A stretch of 64,000 nucleotides of DNA from Pirellulales bacterium (GTDB taxonomy: Bacteria; Planctomycetota; Planctomycetia; Pirellulales; JALHPA01). The notes beneath the pieces were generated by a model. The model was not told the DNA's origin. It made no database searches and saw nothing but the letters and a program-made list of their open reading frames with translations. The stretch covers positions 186,001-250,000 of the forward strand of contig JANRLT010000044.1 in the NCBI GenBank assembly GCA_033762255.1. Direction: 5' to 3'. The translations under genes were made by a program, and so were the position numbers. Below, one piece after another: positions 7,221 to 49,154 of the stretch (its first letter is position 1; each line of letters starts with the position of its first letter).

Positions 7221-10200
7221 ATGAAAACCCCAAATTTCCGCCGGATGACGTTGGCTGCTGTGGTTTGTTTGCTACCCGCGACTCTTCCCGCAGCGGATCG
7301 ATTTTGGATCGATCCATTAGGGGGGAATTTTGTGGATAACGGCAATTGGTCCGCCGTCAGTGGCGGCGCGGGGGGCGCAAGCGTGCCGGGGGCGGCGGAT
7401 GACACAAATTTTGATCTTAATAATACCTATACAGTGTCATTTTCAGGCAATGTAACCAATAACTCGTTGGATGTGGATAATGGAAATATCACGTTCGATT
7501 TGAATGGATTAACCTACACCTTGCTGACTAATTTTGGCGTGGATATTGGGACAGTATCGAATCAAACCGCGCGTTTGACCCTTATCGATGGAACATTGAA
7601 TAGCGATGGCACTGGAGACGACATCTTTGTTGGGCTTTTTGGCACGGGATTTTTAACCGTCGGGACAAATGGCAAAGTGGGCACCGACACCATTCGGCCA
7701 GATTTTAATATAGGATCCAATTCCGCGGGAACCTTAACGATTAACGACAATGGGCAGGTCTTTGGACAGACAATGGTACTGGCAAGCAATTTCGGGACCG
7801 GGACCGCCACTGTCACCGGCCCCCAGGCCAGCATTGACCTAAGCGGGGGCGTGACCGTGGGATCATCTGGCACGGGGTCCCTTAACGTGCAGAGCGGCGG
7901 AACATTCAACACCCTAGGTTCGTTGACGATTGGAAGCGCGACTGGATCGGAAGGAACCGCCACGATCACGGGAAGCGGTTCTAGTCTTAACGCCGGATCA
8001 ATATCGATTGGTTCCATTGGCCTGGGTACACTCACCATTAGCTCGGGGGCGACTGCCAGTACAACAAGCCTTACCCAAGCCAGTAGCGGCGTCAGCGTGG
8101 GAAACGTGGTGGTCACGGGGACCGGATCGGTCCTCAATCTTTCTTCCACCCATACGATTGGAGGGGCGGGGGAGGCCTCACTGACCATTTCCGCCGGCGG
8201 CCAGCTTAATTCGACCTCGAATGTTTCAATCGGCAATACCGGTTCGGCGAATGGCATGGCCACTGTCACGGGGGCAGACTCGCGTTGGACATTGGGTAGC
8301 GGCTTGGCTGTCGGGGCAGCCGGTCCCGGGGCGGTTACAATTTCAAACGGGGGGTTTTTTAGCACGACGCAAAACATTGTCTTGGGAACGACGGCTCCTG
8401 GCGCGGGAACCTTTACCGTCACCGGCGCGGGTTCGCAAAGTTTTTGCGCGTCGTTCATAGTTGGAAACGCGGGCCAAGGGACATTTAACGCGCTGTCGGG
8501 CGCCGAAGTTTATGTCTCTGGCAATCTCAGTATTTTCGATCCCGCGGGGGCTCCGGTCGGCGCCATGCTCTTGGATGGAGGATCCGTCTTTGTCAGCGGC
8601 AATTTCCAAAATTCAAGCGCGTTCAACTTTGTGGACGGCTTGCTGCGGGTTAATGGCAATTTTCAGGCCGCGGCCGCGACGGGACCGTTTACGCTGAACG
8701 GCACGGACAATAGCGACCTGCCAACACTGGAATTGATTGGCGGGGGATTAACCTCCAACATCACCACGCTGAATGTGGGGACGAATCGGCGCGGCGAATT
8801 ACGCCTCCGCCAGGGGCGGATTGTGAATTTGGGGGCGAACTCCATCAATATCGCCTCGCTACCGGGAGGGGAGGGGACGCTCACCGTCGATTCGAGCGCG
8901 CGGCTACTCAGCAGCGGTACGCTCACCGTGGGGGGGATCGGCTTTAATTTTGGAGGCACGGGAACATTGAATATCGCCACTGGAGGGAGTGTCGATATTG
9001 GCACGTTGTTTGTCTTGGGGGACGGCACGGTTAATCTCACCGGGGGAGAGTTGGCGTTCGATTCAATAGGCTTTCTCTCGGGCACCGTCAATTGGTCCAG
9101 TGGCACGGTCCGTATGGACGCGGCTTCCAATACCATAGACGCTACTTTTGTAGAAAAATTCTTAGGCCCCGCCAATACGCTGGGCCCAGGTCGGTTGCTC
9201 TCGACTCCCGTTGCCGCGCATACATTAACTCTTACAAGCCCCATTACCCTCACGGGAGGCATGATCGACGTCAGTTCGTTTGTCAATCAAACCACACTCC
9301 AAATCCAGGCTGGTCAGGTGCGTGGCTTTGATACGGCGGCAAACTCCGGGGTGGTCCTGTTATCCCATCCGTTGGCCATATTCGACGGCTCAACAATCTC
9401 CAACACCGGCACAATTCGCGGCACGGGCAATGTAAGGGGTTCGTTAATCAATCAACTAACCGGCCGAGTCGAGGCACTCACGGGCGAACGGCTGATTTTA
9501 CAAGACCCAACCTCAAACGCCGGCACCGTCTCGGTCATCGGCGGCGAACTCCAATCCAACGCGTTATTTACCAACGCCGTCAGCACGGGCCTGATCGCTG
9601 CCCGCAATGCGCTGCTCAAGTTTAACGGCGGTCTTACCAATAACGGCTCGGTCGGCCTTTCTTTTGGAACCAGCGACATTTACGGCGACATCACCAATTC
9701 CGCCACGGGCCGGATCACCGTCTCGGGGAATTCCAACGCCACGTTCTATGATGATCTGGTCAATAGCGGCGTCGTGCAGGTATCCACCGGCTCCACGGCG
9801 GTCTATTTTGGCGGTGTCAGCGGCGCGGGCAGCTTTCCCGGCGGCGGCACTAACATGTTCGAAGGGGACCTTCGCCCCGGTGCTAGCCCGGCCAATATCG
9901 TCTTTGGGGGGAACATTGTTCTGGGAAGCCTGGCCAACACCCAAATCGAAATTGGCGGCCTAATCCCCGGCACCCAGCACGACCAAATCAACGTGGGGGG
10001 TTCGGCCTCGCTCAACGGCAACCTGGAATTAGCTCTCATCAACGGGTTTATGCCAACGCCAGGCGATAGCTTTACCATACTCAACGCCGCCAATAGGATC
10101 GGTACATTTAGCAGCGTCACGGGGACCAACCCCGCGCCGGGAATCACCCTGACACCCATTTACCTCCCCACCAGCGTGGTCATCCTGAGCAGCACGACCG

Positions 10201-11747
10201 GCGATAAGGTCTGGGGTGTCGATGCCAGCGGCAACGCTAGCGTGGGCGGCAATTGGGTGGGCGGCGTTGCTCCCGGCGGCATCGGCGACACGGCGGCGTT
10301 TACAACAATTATCACGGCCAATCGAGTCGTGACGCTGGACGCGCCCTTAACCGTGGGAACGGTAAAATTCGACGATAACAACAACTATACGATCGCCGGC
10401 CCTGGCACGCTCACCCTGCAAAACACCGGCATGTCGGCGGCAAATATCAGCGTCCTAAACGCCCACGGAAATGGCAGCCACACAATTAACGCCAATGTCA
10501 ACGCCTTAAGCAATGTCAATCTCAGCCAAGGGAGCGGCGGCATATTGACCTTGGGGGGAAATGTGACCCTCGGCGCTTCTCGCACCCTGAATAAAACAGG
10601 GGGAGGCGCGGTCCTCTTGACTGGGGGCCAAACCTACAATAACAACTCCACCCTCAGCTTCGCCGGGGGACCGATCACCTACAACCTGGACGGTATGGAC
10701 GGGGTCGCTTTAGGTACGGGCGTCACGGTGCAACTGGCCGCCGGAACACAACTCAATCTGGCCGGTAGCAACACTCCGTTTTCCGATGGCACCGACCGCG
10801 CGCGGGTCTTTACCAATTCCCCCACCAGCCTGCTGAATATCCTGGGCATTAATCAAGCCGCTGGCCGAGTTACGGGACCAGTGACGATCGCCTTTCCCAA
10901 TGGCAGCCCCACGGGACGCACCGATCTCGACACTCGCACTGATTTAACAGTCACCGGTCTGCGGCAAAATCGACTCACTCTGGCCCCAGGATCGCCTGTC
11001 ATTCCCACCCGGCTTACCGTGGAAGCAACCGACGGCGCGGCGCAGGGGTTGCTGGTCCTGGATAACACGACAGTCAATGGAGGCACCGGCGCGCCGGGAC
11101 TGATACTAGGGAATGACGCTTTGATCGACCTGAACGATAACGACCTGGTCCTCCACTACGAGGACACCCCCGCCGATCCCAATCCCCTGGCCACCGTCAC
11201 CGGTTACCTGGATAACTACTACAGCTTTGGCATGGCACCCGGCAGCGGGGTGCCGATCATCGGCAGCACCGTTGTTGATAACTCTGGTGGTACCCGCGTG
11301 ATTATCGCCGTGGACAACGTCAACACTCAATTTGGCAATATCGGCAATCCTTTTTATGATCTCACCCTGGGGGATTCCAACCTAGGGACAGGTTTTACCC
11401 AAATCATTATTCGCTTTACCTATCCGGGGGACTACAACCTGGACGGACAGGTGGACGGCGGCGACTATGTCGTGGTCGATTCGTTCCTTGGCACACCCAC
11501 GCCTGGATTATCCGGGGGTTGGACGCTGGGGGACGGGGATTTTGACGGCATGGTCACTTCGGCGGATTACCTGCCGATCGACAGCAACTTTGGCTCGGGC
11601 GTGGGGAATCCCCTAGGCGTGAATTTGGGGTATATCGGTAATGCAGCCAATCCTGCGGTAACTGCCATTCCCGAACCGAGCGTCTGGCTGGCAGCGGGAC
11701 TGGCCAGCCTGGGTGTCGCCCGCCTGGGCCTGCGCCGGCGGCGGTAG
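7221..11747 (+). CDS. Giant PEP-CTERM beta-helix surface protein with dockerin-like segment, 1508 aa
   Basis: Start ATG 7221 follows AAGGT by 7 bases and gives a signal peptide (MKTPNFRRMTLAAVVCLLPATLPAA). Residues about 25-110 hold a WxxxxGNF-DNGNWS module. From about 120 to 480 there are repeats of the type IGSxGxGTLTISxGAxASTxxL followed by VTGTGS, as in the T5SS/PEP-CTERM-associated repeat, which predicts a long right-handed beta-helix. Residues about 1400-1463 carry two dockerin/EF-like calcium loops (GDYNLDGQVDGGDY and GDGDFDGMVTSADY). The C terminus, from residue 1483, is IPEPSVWLAAG, a hydrophobic segment and RRRR: a PEP-CTERM sorting tag that an exosortase would recognise. No exosortase gene is in the window. 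Probable role: secreted fibre or envelope-attached scaffold. The second, shorter paralogue follows directly. Confidence 0.9.
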   Translation: MKTPNFRRMTLAAVVCLLPATLPAADRFWIDPLGGNFVDNGNWSAVSGGAGGASVPGAADDTNFDLNNTYTVSFSGNVTNNSLDVDNGNITFDLNGLTYTLLTNFGVDIGTVSNQTARLTLIDGTLNSDGTGDDIFVGLFGTGFLTVGTNGKVGTDTIRPDFNIGSNSAGTLTINDNGQVFGQTMVLASNFGTGTATVTGPQASIDLSGGVTVGSSGTGSLNVQSGGTFNTLGSLTIGSATGSEGTATITGSGSSLNAGSISIGSIGLGTLTISSGATASTTSLTQASSGVSVGNVVVTGTGSVLNLSSTHTIGGAGEASLTISAGGQLNSTSNVSIGNTGSANGMATVTGADSRWTLGSGLAVGAAGPGAVTISNGGFFSTTQNIVLGTTAPGAGTFTVTGAGSQSFCASFIVGNAGQGTFNALSGAEVYVSGNLSIFDPAGAPVGAMLLDGGSVFVSGNFQNSSAFNFVDGLLRVNGNFQAAAATGPFTLNGTDNSDLPTLELIGGGLTSNITTLNVGTNRRGELRLRQGRIVNLGANSINIASLPGGEGTLTVDSSARLLSSGTLTVGGIGFNFGGTGTLNIATGGSVDIGTLFVLGDGTVNLTGGELAFDSIGFLSGTVNWSSGTVRMDAASNTIDATFVEKFLGPANTLGPGRLLSTPVAAHTLTLTSPITLTGGMIDVSSFVNQTTLQIQAGQVRGFDTAANSGVVLLSHPLAIFDGSTISNTGTIRGTGNVRGSLINQLTGRVEALTGERLILQDPTSNAGTVSVIGGELQSNALFTNAVSTGLIAARNALLKFNGGLTNNGSVGLSFGTSDIYGDITNSATGRITVSGNSNATFYDDLVNSGVVQVSTGSTAVYFGGVSGAGSFPGGGTNMFEGDLRPGASPANIVFGGNIVLGSLANTQIEIGGLIPGTQHDQINVGGSASLNGNLELALINGFMPTPGDSFTILNAANRIGTFSSVTGTNPAPGITLTPIYLPTSVVILSSTTGDKVWGVDASGNASVGGNWVGGVAPGGIGDTAAFTTIITANRVVTLDAPLTVGTVKFDDNNNYTIAGPGTLTLQNTGMSAANISVLNAHGNGSHTINANVNALSNVNLSQGSGGILTLGGNVTLGASRTLNKTGGGAVLLTGGQTYNNNSTLSFAGGPITYNLDGMDGVALGTGVTVQLAAGTQLNLAGSNTPFSDGTDRARVFTNSPTSLLNILGINQAAGRVTGPVTIAFPNGSPTGRTDLDTRTDLTVTGLRQNRLTLAPGSPVIPTRLTVEATDGAAQGLLVLDNTTVNGGTGAPGLILGNDALIDLNDNDLVLHYEDTPADPNPLATVTGYLDNYYSFGMAPGSGVPIIGSTVVDNSGGTRVIIAVDNVNTQFGNIGNPFYDLTLGDSNLGTGFTQIIIRFTYPGDYNLDGQVDGGDYVVVDSFLGTPTPGLSGGWTLGDGDFDGMVTSADYLPIDSNFGSGVGNPLGVNLGYIGNAANPAVTAIPEPSVWLAAGLASLGVARLGLRRRR

Positions 11748-11822
11748 GGGGCAGGGGAGAGGGGTTAGGGGTCAGGGAGACGCGGGACGCGAGGCGCGGT
11801 GCGTGGGACGCGGACCTGCCGC

Positions 11823-11919
11823 TTAGCCGCGACGCGCAGCGGAGCACGGTATTTGGTTTTTGGAATTTGGTTACTGGTATTTTTGCTACGACCCACAAAG
11901 CCACCGATGGTATCGGCGG
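11823..11919 (+). repeat. Duplicated noncoding cassette, copy 1
   Basis: About 97 bp, roughly 93 percent identical by eye to 15875-15970. It begins with TTAGCCGCGACGCGCAGC, continues through GGTATTTGGTTTTTGG and ends in the hairpin at 11901-11919. Both copies lie 3' of a PEP-CTERM gene. Confidence 0.85.
11901..11919 (+). repeat. 19-bp hairpin repeat, copy 1 (one mismatch)
   Basis: CCACCGATGGTATCGGCGG, one base from the perfect 8-3-8 inverted repeat CCGCCGAT-GGT-ATCGGCGG found five more times in this window. Preceded by ACAAAG like most other copies. Confidence 0.85.
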
Positions 11920-12146
11920 TCCGCGACGCGGTGGACAGCAATATTTGTAGGAGGCAACTCCGTTGCCGAATATCACCGTGCAGGGGTGCGTAGGCCCCTT
12001 GCCGCGATGCACGGCGCAGCGTAGCGGACAGTACCCAGATCGTCGAATTCTGGGTACTACCTACTTCACTCATAATATTTACATTCAAGTTCCTTTTCTC
12101 ATTTAAAATTCACAACTTCACACTTTAACACGCCACAAGGTTCATC

Positions 12147-15100
12147 ATGCAACAGAATCGCAACCACACAGCCAAGCGTCTTTCCCTGGCCTTGGCAATT
12201 GCCCTGGGTACCCACTTCACACAATCCGCATTAGCCGTGGACCGGACGTGGGATGGCAACGGCCTGGTCCCGCCCAATGGCACGTTTAGCGTGGCGGCCA
12301 ACTGGGACACAGCGGTGCCGCTGGCGGCGGACCGGGCAATTTTTAACATTGCCAATGCCTACACGGTGACGTTGGCCACATCGCCCACGTATACGCAGAA
12401 TGACGTGACGGCGGGGACGGTGAACTTTCGCAGCAATAACGCCACGGTGCGCACTGTGACGCTAACCGGTGCAGACGCATTGAACGTGGATAACGCCACG
12501 TTATCCATTGGGAGCGCGGCGTTACCGGTGGTGGTGAACACAACTAAGTTTGAGGTCGGTTTAGCGGGCGCCGCCACGATTGAGATCGATGGCGGTAATT
12601 CGGCTCTCAATGTTTCCGGGCCGGGGACAACTATTATTGGGCTTAATGGCAATGATGGCACCGTCTTCTTGTCCAATGGGGCCACGCTTTCTTTTGCCCC
12701 TACCGCGCAATTAAATCTTGGCATTTCGGGATTTGCCGCGACTGACGCATTTTTGAATATTCAGAGCGGATCGACGGTGACCGCCGGAGATATTTTTGCC
12801 GGAACTAGTTCAAATGGTGGCGAGGGTAATATTTTGATCACCGGCGCTGGATCACTATTGAATTTACCGACAGCGGCGGATTCCCTGACGTTGGGGGCGG
12901 CGGTCGGCACCGAGATTTCCGATTTGGACGTGATAAACAACGGCACCCTCACAACGGCCGGGATCACGACTATCAACAACACCGGGGATGTATTTATCGC
13001 AACCAATGGCACCTGGAATGCCAATAACAACGTCAGCATTAATGGCGGCAGCCTGAGTCTGCTCAGCACCGGAAATTTCAATTTGGGGGCAAATCGCACG
13101 CTGGCGATTTCTAACTCCGGCGAATTCTCCTCCAATAAGGACTTGCTGATTAACAGTGGCCAAATTCTGAACGTCACCGCTGGCGGCGAACTGCTGGGGG
13201 CTAGTTCGATGCTCGTGGATGTGGGGGACGCCACGACCGGAGCTACCGTCACCGTCGATGGCACTGGCTCGCGAATCGCCGAATCGACCGGCAGCGCCAG
13301 TTTGCGGATCACCGGCGGCGCGGCCAGTTCCACGGTTACGGTCAGTAACGGGGGGAATCTGTCGCTCCCCTCGGGGTTGGCCTTGCAATCGTTGGCTGGC
13401 GTCGGCAACGCCACGCTCAATCTGCAAAGTGGCGGCACGGTCACCGCCAACACATTTAGCATGCTGAGCGATCTGGATGGACTTTCGCAAATCAATATCG
13501 GCAATGCCAGTGGTAATTCGTCGCTCACGTTGACGGGCGGTTTTACCTCAAGCATCGGCGATGGCGCCGGGGCACCCGACTCGGCTGTTGTCTCTGTCAA
13601 CGGCGGCGGTGCTTTTGCGGCTGGAACCAATCCCATTTTTATTAACTCCACGGGGTTATTACATATCAACGGGGGTAATTTCTCTACGTCAGCTAGTATC
13701 TTGATTAATGGCGGGGAATTCCGGAGGAGTTCTAACACGAGCCTAATTTTCGGAAATGGCACTAATTTTACCATCCTGAACGCTGGTGAATTAAATGCTA
13801 CAAGCCCACTTAGCTTTGCATCGAATCAAACTATTTCGATCACGGATGGTGGTAAAGTGCAAGGGACGGGATTTGTGGATGTGCAATCCGGAACGGTGGT
13901 GATCAGCGACCCAGGGACCACTTGGTCAGCGGGTTTCAACACGTTCTGGGGGTTCAATTCCGCCGATCCCTTAAATGTGACTATTTCCAATCAAGCCGTG
14001 GTTACATTAAATAGCCATATCCTGCGGCATAGTGGCGATGGAGCCACAAATGTCACCGTGGAAACCGGCGCAACGCTCAACCTTGACGGAACGACAAGTA
14101 TTAATTCCAACGCTGGAACAATGGCCTCAAACGCAACTATCACCGTCACGGGGTCGGGTTCGACAATCGCATCCAGTGGAGCGAGCTCGATCACCCTGGG
14201 TCGGACGTTAGCGCAAGGCGGAACCGCCCGTATCGAAGTCCTTAACGGCGGTTCGTTTGCAAAAACTACCGGAGTCGTCATTCTCAACGAAACCGGGGTG
14301 TTCCGGCTCGATGGGGGGACGGCGGTCCTCCCCCAAGTCGATTACAACGGCGGCCGGATCGAGCACCTAAGCGGCAGCCTGACGATCGGGGATGATTTGC
14401 CAATTGGCATCAATGGCGCTTTTGGGGATAGTAATGTCACGATCAGCAGCGATGAGTACGTGACGGCCACGGGCGTTACCACCATTCGCGACTTTAAAAC
14501 TCTAACCCTGGCGGGGGGGAGTCTGACGACCGCCGATATCACGATTCCCGCCGGCCAGGGGCAGTTTGCGTTTTTTAACGGCACGCTCAACCTGACCGGC
14601 CCGGGGGGACTTACGGTTGGCGCGGGGGGGCTTTTTGGCGCCAATTTGACAGTCGGCGCCAATCAAAACCTCAATGTAACCAACATTACCACCGTCACGC
14701 CCGGTTCGCTTTTGATCGTGGGGACGGGAGGCGACTTTTCCAGCGGCAGCCTTGGTAACAGCGGTGAAATCATTCTAGGCTCGCTCTCCGCGACTATCTC
14801 GGGGGGGACGGTCTTTAACAACGGCCTGATCCGCGGCGATGGACGTTTTCAATCACAAGTGACAAATAATACTGCTGGCGTTATTCGCGCCGAGTCCGGC
14901 GACCGGATCAAGTTCGAGGGAACCAATGGGCCCAACAGCGGCCGAATCAACCTGCAAGGGGGAACAGCAGAGTTCTTGCAACCATTGACCAATGGCGGCA
15001 CCGGCCAGATCACCGGCCGGGGGACGCTGGTCACTGGCGGGACGGGACTGAATAACCTGGGGAATGTCGCGCTCAGTTCCGGCATCTCGGACATCTTTGG

Positions 15101-15701
15101 CGATGTGCTCAATAACACGGGCAACGCCGCGCTGGGCATTAGCGTCAGCGGCAACGCCGACGTGACATTCTGGGACGATGTGACCAACACCAGCGGGCTG
15201 TTTCGCGTGAGCGCGGGCAGCAGCGCCACATTCTTTGGGGGCTATAGTGGCGGCGGGATCAGCGGCACGGGGGATCTGTACTTTGAAGGGGACATTACCC
15301 CGGGCTTTTCGCCCGCCGATGTTGCCTTTGAAGGGGATGTCGCCTTTGGCCCCGCGGCCAATCTGGTCATGGAATTGGGGGGGAACACCCTGGGTTTCGA
15401 ATACGACCACTTGCAGATTGGCGGCCTGGCCCAACTGGATGGTCTGTTGAGCGTGCGGCTGATTGACGGCTACCGCCTGCCAACGGGGGCCAGCTTTGAC
15501 CTGTTTGACCTGCCTAACGCCCGAGGCCAGTTCAGCGGCATTAATCTGCCCGGCAACCCCGCCGATTGGGACCTGAGCCAACTATACAGTACGGGCCAGG
15601 TCACTTATGTGGGCGTGGCCATCCCCGAACCGAGCGTCTGGCTGGCAGCCGGAATGGCCGGCGCGGGTCTCGTCTGCCTGGGCCTGCGTCGGCGGCGGTA
15701 G
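12147..15701 (+). CDS. PEP-CTERM beta-helix surface protein, paralogue, 1184 aa
   Basis: Start ATG 12147 follows CAAGG. A signal peptide (MQQNRNHTAKRLSLALAIAL and on to ALA) leads into a WDGNG...FSVAANWDT module like that of the preceding gene, then glycine/asparagine/threonine-rich repeats (VTGSGSTIASSG, INNTGDVFIATNG and similar) that predict a beta-helix. The region before the tag (FEYDHLQIGGLAQLDGLLS, LPTGASFDLFD) aligns with HDQINVGGSASLNGNLELA of the first protein. The last about 25 codons, IPEPSVWLAAGMAGAG to LGLRRRR, are almost identical at the DNA level to those of the upstream gene, but the dockerin-like loops are missing. Probably secreted and processed by the same exosortase pathway as its neighbour. 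Tandem duplication or gene conversion is inferred. Confidence 0.9.
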   Translation: MQQNRNHTAKRLSLALAIALGTHFTQSALAVDRTWDGNGLVPPNGTFSVAANWDTAVPLAADRAIFNIANAYTVTLATSPTYTQNDVTAGTVNFRSNNATVRTVTLTGADALNVDNATLSIGSAALPVVVNTTKFEVGLAGAATIEIDGGNSALNVSGPGTTIIGLNGNDGTVFLSNGATLSFAPTAQLNLGISGFAATDAFLNIQSGSTVTAGDIFAGTSSNGGEGNILITGAGSLLNLPTAADSLTLGAAVGTEISDLDVINNGTLTTAGITTINNTGDVFIATNGTWNANNNVSINGGSLSLLSTGNFNLGANRTLAISNSGEFSSNKDLLINSGQILNVTAGGELLGASSMLVDVGDATTGATVTVDGTGSRIAESTGSASLRITGGAASSTVTVSNGGNLSLPSGLALQSLAGVGNATLNLQSGGTVTANTFSMLSDLDGLSQINIGNASGNSSLTLTGGFTSSIGDGAGAPDSAVVSVNGGGAFAAGTNPIFINSTGLLHINGGNFSTSASILINGGEFRRSSNTSLIFGNGTNFTILNAGELNATSPLSFASNQTISITDGGKVQGTGFVDVQSGTVVISDPGTTWSAGFNTFWGFNSADPLNVTISNQAVVTLNSHILRHSGDGATNVTVETGATLNLDGTTSINSNAGTMASNATITVTGSGSTIASSGASSITLGRTLAQGGTARIEVLNGGSFAKTTGVVILNETGVFRLDGGTAVLPQVDYNGGRIEHLSGSLTIGDDLPIGINGAFGDSNVTISSDEYVTATGVTTIRDFKTLTLAGGSLTTADITIPAGQGQFAFFNGTLNLTGPGGLTVGAGGLFGANLTVGANQNLNVTNITTVTPGSLLIVGTGGDFSSGSLGNSGEIILGSLSATISGGTVFNNGLIRGDGRFQSQVTNNTAGVIRAESGDRIKFEGTNGPNSGRINLQGGTAEFLQPLTNGGTGQITGRGTLVTGGTGLNNLGNVALSSGISDIFGDVLNNTGNAALGISVSGNADVTFWDDVTNTSGLFRVSAGSSATFFGGYSGGGISGTGDLYFEGDITPGFSPADVAFEGDVAFGPAANLVMELGGNTLGFEYDHLQIGGLAQLDGLLSVRLIDGYRLPTGASFDLFDLPNARGQFSGINLPGNPADWDLSQLYSTGQVTYVGVAIPEPSVWLAAGMAGAGLVCLGLRRRR

Positions 15702-15737
15702 GACTCGTCCGCAAAGTAGGTCCCGTCAGCAAAGTAG

Positions 15738-15758
15738 GTCCCGTCCGCCGGACGGGAC
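15738..15758 (+). repeat. Perfect hairpin after PEP-CTERM paralogue
   Basis: GTCCCGTCC-GCC-GGACGGGAC, 9-bp stem and 3-base loop, 37 bp after the stop codon. It has no T-run behind it, so it is either an atypical terminator or a dispersed palindromic element. Confidence 0.55.
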
Positions 15759-15803
15759 TTGCTAGGGGACAGGGGTCGCGGGGCTGGAGACGCGAGGACA
15801 AAG

Positions 15804-15822
15804 CCGCCGATGGTATCGGCGG
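15804..15822 (+). repeat. 19-bp hairpin repeat, copy 2
   Basis: CCGCCGATGGTATCGGCGG, a perfect 8-bp stem with a GGT loop, flanked by ACAAAG on the left and TCTGCGG on the right. Confidence 0.9.
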
Positions 15823-15874
15823 TCTGCGGTGCGGGAGGCGGGAGGCGAGAGACTGGAGACGCGGGACCACCCGG

Positions 15875-15970
15875 TAAGCCGCGACGCGCAGCGGAGCGCG
15901 GTATTTGGTTTTTGGAATTTGGTTGCTGGTATTTAGCTACGTCCCACAAAGCCGCCGATGGTATCGGCGG
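15875..15970 (+). repeat. Duplicated noncoding cassette, copy 2
   Basis: Counterpart of 11823-11919; about six substitutions and one single-base length difference over 96 bp. Ends with hairpin copy 3 at 15952-15970. Confidence 0.85.
15952..15970 (+). repeat. 19-bp hairpin repeat, copy 3
   Basis: Perfect CCGCCGATGGTATCGGCGG at the right end of the second cassette, preceded by CCCACAAAG. Confidence 0.9.
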
Positions 15971-18759: not shown

Positions 18760-18778
18760 CCGCCGATACCATCGGCGG
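18760..18778 (-). repeat. 19-bp hairpin repeat, copy 4 (inverted)
   Basis: CCGCCGATACCATCGGCGG on the plus strand, so the GGT loop lies on the minus strand; followed by CTTTGT, the complement of the ACAAAG flank of the other copies. Confidence 0.9.
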
Positions 18779-18803
18779 CTTTGTTTGGCATTCTCCAGTC
18801 GCG

Positions 18804-47944: not shown

Positions 47945-48802
47945 ATGTCGCTGCAAATTTACATCTCTGGCAAATTCTACCCCAAAGAGGACGCCAAGAT
48001 CAGCGTCTATGATCATGGGTTGCTGTATGGCGATGGCGTGTTTGAGGGGTTGCGCAGCTACGGCGGCAAGGTCTTTCGCCTGGAACAGCATTTGGACCGC
48101 CTGTGGGCGTCGGCCCGGGCGATCATGCTAGAGATTCCCCTCTCGCGCCCCGCCCTGGCCAAAGCGGTCAACGACACCGTCGCGCTCAATAAAATCCAGG
48201 ATGGGTACGTGCGGCTGGTTGTGACCCGCGGGGCGGGCAGCCTGGGCCTAGACCCCCACAAAACCAGCCATCCCCAGGTGATCATCATCGCCGACGCGAT
48301 CAGCCTCTATCCGGATGAGTTTTATCAAAAAGGGTTAGAGATCATCACCGCCAGCACGATCCGCAACCATCCCGCCGCCCTCAGCCCCCGAATCAAGTCG
48401 CTGAATTATTTAAATAATATCCTGGCCAAGCTCGAGGGCCTGCAGGCGGGATGTGTCGAGGCCCTCATGCTTAACCACAAAGGTGAAGTGGCGGAATGCA
48501 CGGGAGATAATATATTTCTGGTTAAAAATTCCGCCGTCCTTACCCCCCCCTTGGACGCGGGAATACTCGAAGGGATCACCCGCGACGCTATCATGGAACT
48601 GGCCCGCAAGGCGGGCTACGAAGTTCGTGAACCCGCCCTGACCCGGCACGATGTCTACACCGCGGACGAATGTTTCTTAACCGGTTCCGCCGCCGAGGTC
48701 ATCCCCGTGGTCAAGGTCGATCAACGCCCCATTGGCAATGGCACCGTCGGCCCCGTAACCCGCGACCTGCTAGAACGCTTTAAGAAAGCGACACGCGGCT
48801 AG
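47945..48802 (+). CDS. ilvE: Branched-chain/D-amino-acid class IV aminotransferase, 285 aa
   Basis: Pyridoxal-phosphate enzyme of fold type IV. ISVYDHGLLYGDGVFEGLRS (residues about 19-38) is the N-terminal signature, Lys151 in RIKSLNYLNNILAK should bind the cofactor, and EALMLNHKGEVAECTGDNIF plus EGITRDAIMELARKAGYEV and ADECFLTGSAAEVIPV complete the pattern. The length is a little below E. coli IlvE (309). Likely reaction: 2-oxoglutarate-dependent transamination of branched-chain amino acids; D-alanine aminotransferase is a close alternative, so the symbol is provisional. A G-rich run begins at its stop codon. Confidence 0.85.
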   Translation: MSLQIYISGKFYPKEDAKISVYDHGLLYGDGVFEGLRSYGGKVFRLEQHLDRLWASARAIMLEIPLSRPALAKAVNDTVALNKIQDGYVRLVVTRGAGSLGLDPHKTSHPQVIIIADAISLYPDEFYQKGLEIITASTIRNHPAALSPRIKSLNYLNNILAKLEGLQAGCVEALMLNHKGEVAECTGDNIFLVKNSAVLTPPLDAGILEGITRDAIMELARKAGYEVREPALTRHDVYTADECFLTGSAAEVIPVVKVDQRPIGNGTVGPVTRDLLERFKKATRG

Positions 48803-48892
48803 GGGACAGGGTTAGGGGATAGGGGTTAGAGACGAGGGATGAGGGACGAGGGTGGCGGGGAAAAAACTTGGCCCCTCACTGCTTCAACAAAT

Positions 48893-48911
48893 CCGCCGAT
48901 GGTATCGGCGG
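48893..48911 (+). repeat. 19-bp hairpin repeat, copy 5
   Basis: Perfect CCGCCGATGGTATCGGCGG, preceded by CAACAAAT and followed by TGCGAGAGACG. Confidence 0.9.
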
Positions 48912-49003
48912 TGCGAGAGACGGGAGGTGGGAGACGAGAGGCGGCAGGCAGGAGACGCAGGGGTGCAGGGGAGCGGAGGTGCAAGGGGGGAATGGCAACA
49001 AAG

Positions 49004-49022
49004 CCGCCGATGGTATCGGCGG
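49004..49022 (+). repeat. 19-bp hairpin repeat, copy 6
   Basis: Perfect CCGCCGATGGTATCGGCGG, preceded by CAACAAAG and followed by TGCGGGAGACG, so the flanks resemble copy 5. Confidence 0.9.
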
Positions 49023-49154
49023 TGCGGGAGACGAGGGTCGAGGGACGGGAGACGCAGGGAGAATGGTAAAAATTTAGTAGTAAGAATGCAGCAGGCAGAA
49101 TGACTGTAATCAATTTTTGATTCTTCATTTTTAATTCTTATTTGACAGCCCTCC

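Follow-up and report, generated by a model that had tools for sequence, protein, structure and literature searches.

The block of about 97 bp that recurs behind two neighbouring PEP-CTERM genes of a Pirellulales bacterium is, we conclude with good confidence, a piece of a REP cluster, in which two dispersed repeats designated A and C are joined through TTTGGTN heptads. Both A and C are REP-like elements. In the clusters of this genome, at least two families that carry the classical GTAG foot occur together with families that carry an AAAG or a TTTAG foot.

A composite block behind two neighbouring genes

The window, which denotes the whole 64,000-nucleotide stretch that was analysed, contains two similar genes on the plus strand. 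Gene 1 (7221-11747) encodes a T5SS/PEP-CTERM-associated repeat protein (TIGR04393, 6e-36) with a dockerin type I domain (PF00404) and a C-terminal PEP-CTERM tag (PF07589), and gene 2 (12147-15701) encodes a large secreted repeat protein whose tag is PEP-CTERM-like. A whole-genome search with PF07589 found both tags, that of gene 1 above the Pfam cut-off (21.5 bits) and that of gene 2 below it (15.1 bits). Both open reading frames are intact and share the C-terminal end PEPSVWLAAG...RRRR. The two composite cassettes, each consisting of A, TTTGGTN heptads, and C, occupy positions 11823-11919 and 15875-15970 of the plus strand. The sequence-only reading that drew attention to these blocks described them as nearly identical, and indeed they align with 93.7% identity over 95 bp (BLAST E ~1e-34). 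It also held that, between the two genes, the near-identity was limited to the tag codons and this noncoding block. Beyond the reach of that reading was the occurrence of the block away from these genes: a genome search (5.47 Mb, 72 contigs) with the 97-bp query gave 52 matches. Only ~9 of these span most of the query, and the remainder cover mainly its first 26-60 or last 25-46 bases. The partial matches at either end therefore identify the ends of the cassette as two independent dispersed repeats.

Repeat A, which is headed by TTTAG, lies at 11823-11848 with one mismatch to its consensus and at 15875-15900. Repeat C, a hairpin headed by AAAG, lies at 11895-11919, where the stem contains one A-C mismatch, and at 15946-15970, where it matches the consensus exactly with an 8-bp stem and a 3-nt loop. 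The degenerate heptad spacers between them were read from the sequence at 11850-11884 and 15902-15935; TTTGGTN heptads also adjoin many other copies of A. The 3′ flank of gene 2 contains a further exact copy of C (15798-15822) in the same orientation as the cassette copy, and GTAG-headed REPs oriented like the cassettes are found at 11947-11970 (repeat E; GTAGGAGGCAACTCCGTTGCCGAA) and 15734-15758 (repeat F; GTAGGTCCCGTCCGCCGGACGGGAC). All of these elements lie on the plus strand. Elsewhere in the window, copies of C with no PEP-CTERM gene nearby are located between convergent genes (18760-18784, minus strand) and, as two co-oriented copies 111 bp apart, at 48887-48911 and 48998-49022 (plus strand). 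Folding of the whole cassette as one RNA was no better than that of shuffled sequences, and an Rfam search returned only one miRNA model, a chance match that fell far short of the cut-off.

The similarity between the two 3′ flanks is slightly longer than the cassette (11782-11919 versus 15831-15970; 86% over 141 columns). The tag DNA (11664-11747 and 15618-15701, plus strand) is 88% identical over 84 bp, silent sites included, and the alignment that runs to the stop (11664-11748 versus 15618-15702) gives 88% over 85 bp. Between the tag and the 141-bp block, the flanks of the two genes do not align. Gene conversion at 3′ ends, an early suggestion for the shared block, is plausible for the window pair on the strength of this tag DNA, but the suggestion does not extend to PEP-CTERM genes at large: the window tag DNA is not common to 30 other PEP-CTERM loci (14 bp in one at most). 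As judged from the alignments, a local duplication or conversion of the 3′ end, with later turnover of the simple-sequence spacer, appears to fit the window pair best. The cluster would then stand behind both genes because duplication or conversion carried a 3′ end of ~300 bp, comprising the tag and a portion of the flank, from one neighbour to the other. The two copies could instead represent independent insertions of a composite A-heptad-C unit. Such composites are indeed found in other surroundings at ~7 other sites (for example, C53:27143 (87%), C7:65252, C72:62980, and twice on contig C46). However, the window pair is mutually closer than either copy is to any other, its similarity continues ~40 bp past the cassette, and similar tag DNA adjoins the block only in these two genes. 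We therefore consider independent insertion rather unlikely and favour the local duplication or conversion.

Hairpins, feet and transposase genes

The consensus of C (ACAAAGCCGCCGATGGYATCGGCGG) is 25 nt long and begins with the foot AAAG, in the context AYAAAG, followed by the stem and loop. The genome contains 96 copies with up to 1 mismatch, as well as 72 copies of the 21-nt core of A (consensus GTTTAGCCGCGACGCGCAGCGGAGCGCG, foot TTTAG) with up to 2 mismatches; the reversed control of each gave 0. Called genes in the sampled stretches contain only 2 of 113 C copies. Folded as single-stranded DNA, the C hairpin reaches a z of -4.5 against shuffles; A alone folds as DNA no better than shuffles. 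Each position of the AAAG foot is conserved in 96-98% of C copies. A scan of 296 genomes of the order for C gave two hits, one of which is this genome. Elsewhere in Planctomycetota, C occurs with an altered, still complementary stem (CCGCCGAT/ATCGGCGG and CCGCGGAT/ATCCGCGG), and most copies of these C-like elements retain the foot AAAG. The search pattern used in relatives left both sides of the fifth stem pair free; of the 28 distinct elements found there, 11 have C-G at this pair and 15 have G-C. Further both-sided stem changes were observed within and outside this genome, and these compensatory changes support the C hairpin. The GTAG foot is present in E (consensus GTAGGAGGCRACTCCGTYGCC) and F and absent from A and C.

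Hairpins of this type border transposase genes. In genome G019, two inverted copies of C that lie 626 bp apart enclose an open reading frame of ~177 amino acids, which contains the HUH motif THLHLL and the tyrosine motif YIERHN and matches PF01797 above its cut-off. In genomes G297, G298, and G300, inverted AAAG hairpins flank an HUH open reading frame (H-L-H, Y-I) whose protein is 57-60% identical to that of G019. These four loci were reached through the hairpin; a protein-alignment search of 392 Planctomycetota genomes provided a hairpin-blind test. The two strongest full-length hits of that search (L249 and L250; E < 1e-80) are intact and have AAAG-foot hairpins on both sides, with an unrelated stem (CGCGACC) in L250. 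The third strong hit, G483, is broken by two stops and lacks the typical AAAG REP pair. Several of the weaker, more distant RAYT-like hits of the clade have hairpins with the foot TTTAGC, which is that of A. C-type hairpins flank a transposase gene in inverted orientation in six genomes. Within this genome, copies of A flank a RAYT-like HUH gene (C60:63568-63906), in plus orientation on the left and as two minus copies on the right, and E lies on both sides of a RAYT at C17:56080 (NF047646, 114 bits; cut-off 80).

Repeat C flanks no transposase gene in this genome. Searches for a close relative of the C-flanked transposase gave none here (best 26-32% identity; no match at 1e-12); C is therefore either an orphan in this genome or served by an enzyme encoded in the few percent that are missing. 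Two of three tested C-flanked transposases fall just below the Pfam cut-off for Y1_Tnp, and with NF047646 the C-flanked transposase scores 38 against a cut-off of 80. We consider it probable that Planctomycetota have a clade of RAYT-like HUH/Y1 transposases in which A and C have separate partner enzymes, and the explanation as a whole carries the same probability. The anatomy of the flanks and the example of E. coli TnpAREP (PMC6006769) suggest that transposases copy these repeats and choose the strand: the hairpin would be recognised on single-stranded DNA by a RAYT-like enzyme, for which the foot tetranucleotide would serve as a guide for cleavage and which would paste copies elsewhere. The early proposal of a mobile noncoding unit is supported in substance, in that its components are REP-like and such elements lie on either side of transposase genes.

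The repeats share many features with REP elements of the GTAG superfamily and their RAYTs (Di Nocera et al. 2013, PMC3733652; for the TnpAREP classes, PMC6006769). They are intergenic palindromes of 20-40 nt in high copy number with an unpaired foot, they lie 3′ of genes and are inverted around an HUH-Y transposase gene, and E and F from the same clusters have the classical foot. They differ from REPs in the feet of C (AAAG) and A (TTTAG), and the C-flanked transposases differ from RAYTs in scoring below the cut-off of the RAYT model. Class 3 TnpAY1 enzymes of Planctomycetes and Acidobacteria, which are characterised by a CnGA foot and a Y----Q motif (PMC6006769), resemble the C-flanked enzymes in their length (~178 amino acids), their occurrence in Planctomycetes, and their position beside atypical secondary structures present in many genome copies. 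However, the C-flanked enzymes have AAAG feet and the motif YIE-HN, and the CnGA foot is absent (AAAG/TTTAG instead). CGTC-tagged repeats (PMC3733652) are likewise short tagged palindromes downstream of genes, but CGTC has no conserved place here, where it closely precedes C in just one cassette (copy 2), and those repeats have no dedicated transposase, whereas C has one in relatives. TIRtrons and their TIRYTs (PMC3733652) are similar in that RAYT-like genes lie between non-GTAG inverted repeats that form genomic families; their terminal repeats are mostly long and not uniformly self-complementary, whereas each flank here is a short hairpin with a constant foot. In the open papers, among them REP/RAYT papers that mention planctomycetes, we found no description of AAAG- or TTTAG-footed families. 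If our reading is correct, RAYTs are not tied to GTAG as their guide tetranucleotide, and relatives with AAAG or TTTAG feet and freely varying stems would provide a natural series for studying how the enzyme reads foot and stem.

Repeat C at gene ends and the PEP-CTERM genes

The placement of C raises the alternative that it is an intrinsic terminator or a general stabiliser of mRNA 3′ ends, selected at any gene end and spread by selection rather than by a transposase. C is oriented with the upstream gene in 35:13 of co-directional gaps, is commoner in convergent than in divergent gaps (40:11), and lies nearer its sense gene in 31 of 40 convergent gaps. However, no T-run follows the hairpin, where positions are mixed T/A/G/C, and 24 of 99 copies run antisense to the closest gene upstream. 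In addition, the unpaired head of C is conserved as much as the stem, and similarly built hairpins flank HUH transposase genes. These features render a terminator or stabiliser improbable as the explanation for C, for which a secondary role as an RNA element is possible.

The sequence-only reading had named the block a candidate 3′ UTR element for PEP-CTERM cargo and proposed a test of whether it is enriched behind the PEP-CTERM genes of this genome. Two profile searches yielded 60 such genes; the background was drawn from three complete contigs (0.94 Mb) chosen as unbiased, on which a home-made hexamer-based caller, which may miss small genes, called 569 genes. C lies within 500 bp downstream of 4/60 PEP-CTERM genes versus 12/569 others with the window genes included (one-sided Fisher p = 0.057), and behind 2/58 versus 10/567 with them excluded (p = 0.31). 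Thus, C stands in sense behind both window genes and downstream of two further PEP-CTERM genes, but 56 of the 60 lack C (up to 1 mismatch) in the first 1 kb downstream, the majority of C copies are located elsewhere, and no PEP-CTERM gene of the 60-gene set outside the window is followed by A. A functional element whose hairpin stabilises or regulates the mRNAs of sorted proteins is therefore hardly credible, and with enrichment absent a PEP-CTERM-specific 3′ element was rejected. Copies are scattered through this genome with no preference for PEP-CTERM genes, which by the yardstick of the sequence-only reading itself marks a plain dispersed repeat; the block is no signal of the PEP-CTERM system here, and PEP-CTERM sorting has no part in the clusters.

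One-way clusters of unrelated families

Orientation was analysed in a sample of 1.69 Mb that was partly chosen around copies. Pairs of A, C, E, and F less than 600 bp apart are co-oriented in 232 of 237 cases (232:5), including 175 of 178 pairs between different families. Clusters are uniform in orientation in 64 of 67 cases versus at most 37 in 2000 random draws, although some clusters arose by duplication and the draws overstate independence. Mixed-family clusters are uniform in 49 of 51 cases. Replication direction was considered as the cause of this co-orientation and rejected: pairs more than 1.5 kb apart are randomly oriented (95:107 and 112:109), and a replichore-wide bias is therefore not the explanation. 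A GC-skew comparison at the 20-kb scale was a weak test.

Clusters run with the upstream gene in 59:24 of co-directional gaps and lie nearer the gene with which they are sense in 41 of 49 convergent gaps. For ~80% of copies, the element strand is rich in G in the neighbouring non-repeat DNA, and this mostly holds for elements antisense to the gene as well. Copies have thus built up immediately 3′ of genes, on the strand rich in G and in one direction per cluster. One tentative model is that several RAYT-like transposases of one cell place their REPs in 3′ flanks of genes with strand specificity, always on the same G-rich strand, which is perhaps exposed as single-stranded DNA by transcription (R-loops), producing one-way mosaics of unrelated families; AAAG and TTTAG would then constitute two further guide classes beside GTAG. 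Deposition on an exposed G-rich strand as the mechanism of one-way clusters is our conjecture. If our overall reading is right, the one-way clusters give a direct approach to the strand and the DNA state in which REPs insert.

The co-orientation within clusters is unexpected and unusual. Published REPs also lie downstream of genes, but in many of their families the paired elements face opposite ways (PMC3733652). The clusters of this genome are arranged head-to-tail across families instead of in the inverted pairs typical of BIMEs and REPINs. Inverted clusters ~150-2500 bp apart were considered as REPtrons in general, a reading rejected on finding a recognisable RAYT in only 2 of 29 gaps. In relatives, the transposases do have inverted dimers next to them.

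Hairpin feet and stems in the transposase clade

The transposases at loci L249, L250, L255, L267, L268, L273 and L275 belong to a single clade of RAYT-like HUH/Y1 enzymes of Planctomycetota and have hairpins alongside. The foot of these hairpins, AAAG or TTTAG, seems to be constant inside each subclade, whereas the stem sequence varies freely between genomes.

RAYT-like genes of the Pirellulales genome

A third RAYT-like gene of the genome (L246, G000:C60:51259-51729) encodes a 163-aa protein that contains YGTWLPGDERG and SNHIHVV. Yet another inverted repeat family, CAGCCCGCNGCGTTAGCAASGG, lies on both flanks of the gene, and one flank carries three 36-nt copies in tandem. An IS200-like gene remnant with four stops (L068, G000:C42:27709-27954) adjoins a copy of repeat E, a REP with a GTAG foot, and is probably a decayed RAYT gene.

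Intergenic hairpins, mosaics and heptads

The hairpin AGTACCCAGA...TCTGGGTACT lies 3' of gene 1 (window 12030-12058); no second copy was found in three whole contigs. A very dense intergenic mosaic occupies the start of contig C46 (L107:1-2500). Its first ~480 bp, which consist of REP families and heptads, are present again 1.4 kb onward, inverted but with order unchanged, and the two copies enclose decayed sequence. Degenerate G-rich heptads (GGGGNNA, GGGAGAC and TTTGGTN) crowd intergenic DNA on the REP strand, at window 11750-11820, 15770-15875 and 48780-49080 and in many flanks. They may resemble the heptameric STRRs of cyanobacteria.
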